Source: Desulfurivibrio sp.
GTDB taxonomy: Bacteria; Desulfobacterota; Desulfobulbia; Desulfobulbales; SURF-16
Length of the DNA: 64,000 nt
Reading direction: 5' to 3'
Assembly (NCBI GenBank): GCA_003605035.1
Contig: QZKJ01000053.1
Span: 1-64,000, forward strand
Shown here: piece after piece, positions 34,351 through 35,936 of the stretch
Numbering within the stretch: position 1 is the first letter of the stretch
Layout of the letters: each line of letters starts with the position of its first letter
Notes under the pieces: model-generated
The model's database searches: none
Told to the model about the DNA's origin: nothing
The model's input: the letters and a program-made list of their open reading frames with translations, nothing else
Translations under genes and position numbers: made by a program

Positions 34351-35469
34351 TCAGTCTTTGGTGGTGTGGCAGACGAAGCAGCCGTCCTCATTGGCTTCGC
34401 CGGCGATGATCTGGCTGTAATCCCAGCGCAGGATGTCCGGATGCTCTGAGCCATGCACCCGGTGGCAGGAAAGGCACATGACAATGGCCTCGTCCCGCTG
34501 GGGCGTGGCGGGATTGACCCAGGCCACCGGAGACTGGACCTCGTAGGCGGTCACCGGGTTGTACTGGGCGTATTCCCCATCTTCCGGCAGAGCGATGTCC
34601 GTAGGATGGCGCAGCCAGGTGTTGATGCCGATGCCGGCGTTGCTGTGAAATAAGTTGTGGCAGCCCGCGCAGTAGCTGGAGATGCTGTTGCTCTGCTTCA
34701 GTTCCAGGCTTTCGGCGCCATCGTTGGGATTCCTGTCAACCCCCTTGTAGAAATTGTGTTCCGTTAAAGTCGTATCATCAGGGTGTTCCCAGCTGGCATG
34801 CTCAACGCCTTCCACCCAGGCGCCAAACCGTTCGTCATGGGAAGTAAGAAAGCGATACGGGGTATTGTCCGCCAGATACGGGGTGCTGTCCTTGTGGTGA
34901 TAGACGCTGTAGTGGCAGCCCTGGCAGCCGCCCCGGTAATCGTTCCCCCCGGCCGGCGCCACGGCCAGGGTATTGTGGCAGGACTCGGCATTGCCGCAGC
35001 GGTTATTGCCGGGCGCACTGGTAAGGGTGCCGTCGATTTCCGAGATGCCGTAGACATTGTGGCCGTACCCGTCATAGGTTTCACCCCGGGAAACCTGGTA
35101 GAAGTTGCCGCCGGCCAGGGGCTTGGTCGGGTATTGCGCGGTATTCATGACAATGGGGATCCGGTTTTCCCCGAGTTGCACGATGGTCTGATCAGAGGTG
35201 GCGGAGTGGCAGCCGACGCAGTCGGAGATGAGCAGATAGCCAATCGGCGACTCGGAGGCCGCCCCGGCGTTGAAACTGCCGTCGGCGGCCCAGCCGGCGC
35301 CGTCTCCACTGTGCGCGACCGCCGCGCCGTCCTGGGAATTATGCATGGTGTGGCAGTTGCCGCAGACCCCGCTTACTTTTGCGGCAGCAGTGCCGGCAGC
35401 AAGGCTCAAGGCAAGGGTGAGAACCGAATAGAGGAGAAATCTCCTCTCAGCAAGAGAAATGTTTGTCAT
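34351..35469 (-). CDS. Periplasmic multiheme cytochrome c, 7 candidate heme sites (6 CXXCH + 1 CX5CH)
   Basis: Signal peptide; CGNCH, CVGCH, CGNAESCH, CQGCH, CAGCH, CLSCH, CFVCH. Confidence 0.85.
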   Translation of the reverse strand: MTNISLAERRFLLYSVLTLALSLAAGTAAAKVSGVCGNCHTMHNSQDGAAVAHSGDGAGWAADGSFNAGAASESPIGYLLISDCVGCHSATSDQTIVQLGENRIPIVMNTAQYPTKPLAGGNFYQVSRGETYDGYGHNVYGISEIDGTLTSAPGNNRCGNAESCHNTLAVAPAGGNDYRGGCQGCHYSVYHHKDSTPYLADNTPYRFLTSHDERFGAWVEGVEHASWEHPDDTTLTEHNFYKGVDRNPNDGAESLELKQSNSISSYCAGCHNLFHSNAGIGINTWLRHPTDIALPEDGEYAQYNPVTAYEVQSPVAWVNPATPQRDEAIVMCLSCHRVHGSEHPDILRWDYSQIIAGEANEDGCFVCHTTKD

Positions 35470-35737
35470 ATGCGCCTCCGGTGGCAGGTCTTCATTCTGG
35501 TCATTTGTGCGGCTTTCTGGTTTGATTGATCGTGGCATCGGGTTGCCTGGATCTGGCTGGCCCAGGCGGGCATCGGGAAATATGCGCAGAGGGGGATGCT
35601 AAGGGGGGGGAGATGTTCCCGGCAGGCACAGCAAGGGGAGAAAGCTTCAGCAACGCTTTTTGTCATAAAGCCGCTGCTGGCCGGGAGCCCCGATTGTGTC
35701 ATCTTGGTGATCCTCTCTTTTGTCAGGAGGTGGCCAT

Positions 35738-35777
35738 AAAAAAAGCCGGGTCACTCGCGATAACAAGGCAACCCGGC
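35738..35777 (-). terminator. Intrinsic terminator overlapping the 3' part of the riboswitch aptamer
   Basis: Minus strand GCCGGGT-N19-ACCCGGC followed by TTTTTTT. Confidence 0.8.
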
Positions 35778-35844
35778 AATCTTGGCAGGAAGATCCGTGG
35801 TTTTCCGTCCCCGGCTTACGCCGGGTTTGGCTTTATCTTGTTAT
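35760..35844 (-). promoter_or_regulatory. c-di-GMP-I (GEMM-I)-like riboswitch aptamer upstream of multiheme cytochrome
   Basis: Minus strand ATAACAAG-ATAAAGCCAAA-CCCGGC-GTAA-GCCGGG-GACGGAAAACCACGG-ATCTT-CCTGCC-AAGAT-TGCCGGGTTGC-CTTGTTAT; P1 8 bp, P2 6 bp with GNRA loop, conserved ACC/GACG.AAA/GGGTTGCC elements. Confidence 0.75.
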
Positions 35845-35870: not shown

Positions 35871-35886
35871 GTTTACATATGTAAAC
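35871..35886. promoter_or_regulatory. Perfect 16-bp palindrome GTTTACATATGTAAAC (possible operator)
   Basis: Self-complementary, 27 bp upstream of the riboswitch P1 on the minus strand. Confidence 0.5.
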
Positions 35887-35936
35887 GGAAAACCGCGGAT
35901 ATGCAATTGGGCAAATTGTCGCAGCGCAGGGCGCTG

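Follow-up and report, generated by a model that had tools for sequence, protein, structure and literature searches.

The minus-strand element at 35844-35738 of the window (the whole 64,000-nucleotide stretch of DNA analysed here) is a GEMM-I (c-di-GMP-I) aptamer with an overlapping intrinsic terminator and lies 5' of a gene for a multiheme cytochrome. Most likely it is an ordinary, well-formed c-di-GMP-type GEMM-I antitermination switch, and we assign a probability of about 0.86 to its acting as a transcriptional ON riboswitch of this class by antitermination into the cytochrome gene. A c-di-GMP-type (G20) switch would thus join the control of multiheme cytochromes, for which the best-studied Geobacter cases use cGAMP.

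The aptamer and its ligand pocket

P1, P2 with its GTAA loop, the conserved segment and the 3' element, in the GEMM-I order given in the original prediction, are all found on the minus strand. Positions follow Vc2 numbering, given in part in PMC3764141. The parts of the element are:

35844-35738, minus strand: whole element, aptamer plus overlapping terminator
35763-35840, minus strand: GEMM-I (c-di-GMP-I) aptamer, matched by RF03167 and RF01051
35844-35837, minus strand: 5' strand of P1, ATAACAAG
35829-35831, minus strand: G20 (35831), C21 (35830) and C22 (35829), the ligand-contacting G and the 5' side of the two-pair P2 base
35825-35810, minus strand: P2 hairpin CCCGGC-GTAA-GCCGGG, GTAA being a GNRA tetraloop
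from 35809, minus strand: conserved segment GACGGAAAACCACGG
35804-35806, minus strand: G45 (35806) and G46 (35805), partners of C22 and C21, and A47 (35804), the intercalating A
35770-35802, minus strand: P3, short, no 11-nt tetraloop receptor found by pattern
from 35777, minus strand: 3' element GCCGGGTTGCC
35768, minus strand: C92, which the terminator fold pairs instead
35767-35760, minus strand: 3' strand of P1, CTTGTTAT, also within the terminator hairpin
35738-35777, minus strand: intrinsic terminator, GCCGGGTTGC (35777-35768) with GTGACCCGGC (35754-35745), then T7

A cmscan of the window gave RF03167 (c-di-GMP-I-GGC) as its single match above cut-off (73.7 bits, E 1.4e-15, cut-off 59); a SorX match was discarded as chance (14.9 bits against a cut-off of 46.6). 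The aptamer also passes RF01051 (c-di-GMP-I, GEMM-I; 66.3 bits against 35), the model originally named for the check, which is outscored by RF03167. This 7.4-bit lead could mark the RNA as a genuine c-di-GMP-I-GGC variant whose ligand is altered or unknown, but the window RNA reads GACGGAAA, with A47, where the RF03167 consensus is GACGCGAA, with G47, and G47 occurs in none of the aptamers typed in the order (0/140) or in wider samples. We consider such a variant extremely unlikely and rejected it on A47. Since A47 departs from that consensus, the pocket is canonical and the family name makes no statement on the ligand; we infer that "GGC" denotes positions 20, 47 and 92. RF03167 owes its higher score to shared P3 and context rather than to the pocket; in this order, the best-scoring Rfam name can therefore be misleading as to how the ligand is bound.

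Aligned to Vc2, the window aptamer shares with RF01051 the P1-P2-P3 architecture, the GNRA loop on P2, the pocket letters G20, A47 and C92, and the conserved C22 and G45, paired as usual (conserved c-di-GMP-I positions are those listed in PMC3764141); it differs in carrying C21-G46 instead of G21-C46 and in its short P3, in which no 11-nt tetraloop receptor was found. The predicted partner of C92 is the second guanine of c-di-GMP. Position 20 is G, as originally read, and not A20, the hallmark of the GEMM-Ib (cGAMP) type; all six GEMM-I copies in the genome have G20, which fits c-di-GMP as the signal. An identical antitermination switch whose cognate ligand is 3',3'-cGAMP, or which responds promiscuously to cGAMP and c-di-GMP, is nevertheless conceivable: the GEMM-I switches of Geobacter cytochrome genes mostly bind cGAMP (PMC6456294), A20 relatives occur in the order (12/140), and in another GEMM-I RNA G20 is a selectivity factor and no hard filter (PMC9262584). 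Yet G20 stands in the window RNA as in 6/6 genome copies, and in Gmet_0970 the change of A20 to G switches selectivity to c-di-GMP (PMC6456294), so that we regard cGAMP sensing as improbable and retain c-di-GMP as the predicted ligand.

The C21-G46 pair had been interpreted as an odd, compensatory swap; instead it is ordinary variation at a pair whose identity is not conserved. We typed 140 model matches (a few loci counted twice) in a set of 58 related genomes, 38 of which carry a switch. G20 with C21-G46 accounts for 80 of the 140 aptamers (two of them U92), G20 with G21-C46 for 45, A20 with G21-C46 for nine and A20 with C21-G46 for three; the remaining three are a decayed copy in a congener, an aptamer with a U-G pair and a weak match that is probably spurious. 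C21-G46 is therefore the majority form in the order (83/140), and a published list of highly conserved c-di-GMP-I positions includes neither 21 nor 46 (PMC3764141); together these make the swap common in the order, and a rare compensatory change is ruled out by the relatives that share it. The C21-G46 pattern is also seen in Desulfobacterota-type genomes, Campylobacterota, gammaproteobacteria and others, where a bare pattern may match by chance; 77 model matches were obtained in 80 of these cross-phylum loci.

The short P3, originally described as lacking an obvious canonical tetraloop receptor, is just as ordinary. A pattern search for the 11-nt receptor, and for that receptor only, found none in P3 of the window aptamer, where the GTAA loop is present on P2, and none in the 80 G20 C21-G46 aptamers of the related genomes; a short P3 without the receptor is thus normal for C21-G46 aptamers. 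In an alignment of 80 aptamers, itself fitted to the structure, standard pairs fill 92.5% of pair cells against 77% after shuffling, and 16 of 19 pairs show changes on both sides.

Mutually exclusive folds and the proposed switch

When the RNA is cut before the 3' arm of the terminator, its minimum free energy structure is exactly the GEMM-I P1-P2-P3 fold (-31.7 kcal/mol, z -2.4). The full leader folds instead into the 14-pair terminator (-39.4 kcal/mol, z -2.9), against -33.4 kcal/mol when the aptamer pairs are forced. The window terminator, in which ACCCGGC is followed by T7 ending at 35738 (minus strand), shares strands with the aptamer: its 5' arm (35777-35768) holds half of P3 together with C92, and its upper part holds the 3' strand of P1. 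Because of these shared strands the two folds exclude each other, as had been proposed and as the comparison of truncated and full leader bears out.

We propose that RNA polymerase would make P1-P2-P3 first; c-di-GMP, when present, would be held by G20, A47 and C92, with P1 and P3 locked, and the ligand-bound aptamer would keep GCCGGGTTGC from pairing downstream, allowing transcription into the multiheme cytochrome gene. Without ligand, the GCCGGGTTGC strand would pair with GTGACCCGGC, C92 would leave the pocket and the hairpin formed before T7 would stop transcription. Equilibrium folding favours the terminator over the aptamer by about 6 kcal/mol in the full leader, so that the outcome would depend on kinetics and ligand. 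The ligand-ON logic predicted at the outset is supported by these computations.

The mechanism has a measured precedent. In Geobacter metallireducens, the pilM GEMM-Ib switch acts by ON antitermination and its terminator captures the ligand-pairing C75 (PMC9262584). The window element resembles it in its exclusive aptamer and terminator, in the capture of the ligand-pairing C and in transcriptional ON control, here predicted; unlike pilM, which senses c-GAMP, it has G20 and a multiheme cytochrome target. GEMM-Ib switches also activate cytochrome genes in G. sulfurreducens, where pgcA and omcAHG exemplify terminator-controlled ON switches before multiheme cytochromes (PMC6456294), an arrangement predicted for the window; those switches are cGAMP-responsive, whereas G20 in the window points to c-di-GMP. 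The pilM-like exclusive folds make ligand-ON antitermination the natural reading of the window element.

The cytochrome locus in relatives and its surroundings

The following features flank the element:

34351-35469, minus strand: multiheme c-type cytochrome, 372 aa, six CxxCH and one CX5CH, signal-peptide-like N-terminus
35466-35702, minus strand: possible 78-aa leader ORF, its stop overlapping the cytochrome start (ATGA) in the window genome
35871-35886, minus strand: operator-like perfect palindrome of 16 bp, GTTTACATATGTAAAC, covering the proposed -10
35878-35906, minus strand: proposed sigma-70-like promoter, TTGCAT, 17-nt spacer, TACATA, suggested by comparison
35910-35923, minus strand: TGCGACAATTTGCC, promoter-proximal motif common to the regulon

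The cytochrome probably starts at the ATG at 35469, about 270 nt past the terminator, and not at 35538; this ATG lies behind CGGAGG and is conserved in relatives. The seven hemes first attributed to the protein correspond to six canonical CxxCH motifs and a putative seventh site, a non-canonical CX5CH. At this third heme-motif position (residues 158-165), relatives range from CX2CH to CX6CH. The domain search matched the doubled-CXXCH domain only and no solved structure was found to match the cytochrome by sequence; family resemblance suggests a role in electron transfer.

Orthologous leaders in two congeners (G003 and G001) keep both aptamer and terminator, and changes in P2 preserve pairing. 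In G003 the switch is kept ahead of the orthologous cytochrome; in G001 the contig breaks between switch (C60) and cytochrome (C86), whose adjacency is deduced from the alignment with G003. A third congener (G002, L045/L080) has a decayed aptamer without G20 and C92 before the same cytochrome, with the terminator kept and its first pair changed from G-C to A-T on both sides. In another genus of the same family (G010, L047) only a 3' relic is left before this cytochrome; its local score of 22 exceeds the highest values obtained from 500 shuffles (13) and from 57 background windows (11.5). The model gave no match upstream of the G011 and G018 orthologues. This pattern of retention and decay indicates that the switch on the cytochrome is of long standing within the group and has disappeared on at least two occasions, and the two relatives without an aptamer at the same gene indicate that the control is dispensable. 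The terminator left behind in G002 and the relic in G010 could also suggest that the window leader is a constitutive attenuator, with a functional terminator and an aptamer that no longer responds to ligand. However, the window copy has every pocket letter and helix intact and two congeners keep it, making a constitutive attenuator very hard to credit; we thus retain the ligand-responsive switch.

Further upstream, the putative TTGCAT/TACATA promoter was not listed by a consensus promoter scan. G001 and G003 retain the palindrome GTTTACATATGTAAAC; G002, whose aptamer has also decayed, has lost it. Ahead of many C21-G46 aptamers in the genus, the TGCGACAATTTGCC motif stands 5' of a -35-like box (TTTACA/TTGACA); allowing at most 2 mismatches, it lies upstream of 28 of the 83 C21-G46 aptamers, compared with 1.6 in shuffles. 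The 13-mer GCGACAATTTGCC (at most 1 mismatch) has 41 occurrences in the genome, some of them close to other multiheme cytochromes, compared with 6 for the reversed control, and some motif sites form a dyad, CAATGCGGCAATTTGCCGCATTG in G011. The motif resembles a site at which a transcription factor of the regulon would bind. Between terminator and cytochrome, the leader ORF contains a conserved ribosome-site-like stretch, while its protein is poorly conserved in G001 and G003.

Pair orientation and expression platform

The other GEMM-I copies of the genome precede an OmcS homologue (E 7.6e-60 to 6ef8), a GGDEF+HD protein, a phosphoesterase with zinc ribbons, a rhodanese-domain protein and an Ig/cadherin-like protein; 25 GGDEF-domain matches were counted in this genome. 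Two of its copies are G21-C46 and have no overlapping terminator, which rules out one shared mechanism for all its aptamers. At one locus (L005, G000 C47), a G21-C46 aptamer without overlapping terminator lies a short distance before an OmcS homologue.

A terminator was scored as overlapping when a stem of 6 or more pairs, no fewer than 4 of them G-C, had its 5' arm in the aptamer's last 30 nt and was followed by a T run. By this definition, 66 of 80 G20 C21-G46 aptamers of the relative set have one, against 2 of 44 G20 G21-C46 aptamers, while shuffling the 3' part of the aptamer yields an expected 14.7 over all 139 tested. When the count is restricted to the 14 genomes carrying both forms and duplicates are removed, the figures are 54/66 and 2/35. 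A separate draw from across the phylum, of 396 genomes chosen by exact core patterns, gave 14/21 and 0/24. The corresponding Fisher P values, 3e-14 for the within-genome comparison and 7e-7 for the phylum draw, both ignore relatedness and are not to be read as probabilities. In a broad cross-phylum sample, 32 of 76 C21-G46 aptamers have the terminator (7.3 expected). The first Shine-Dalgarno and start codon lie at a median distance of 110 nt from C21-G46 aptamers and of 55 nt from G21-C46 aptamers, which suggests that the G21-C46 group may be under translational control.

We hypothesize, at roughly even odds, that the GEMM-I switches of the phylum form two classes by 21-46 orientation: C21-G46 with a short P3, no 11-nt receptor and an overlapping terminator, and G21-C46 without that terminator and tending to lie closer to a start codon, which would suit translational control. 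Both classes would be present in one genome and divide its cyclic-dinucleotide regulon between two mechanisms. The 21-46 pair could then be a simple sequence marker predicting the type of expression platform. The link is correlative: one ancient split into two lineages could also give the pattern, and we rejected a proven mechanistic coupling because such a split suffices and the cross-phylum share is only 32/76. Outside this phylum, G21-C46 switches could well rely on terminators. A literature search covering a small part of the field found no published statement of a link between pair and platform. Tandem arrangements also occur, with three GEMM-I aptamers in a row at L121 (G014 C78) and a pair of A20 aptamers at L100 (G004 C478).
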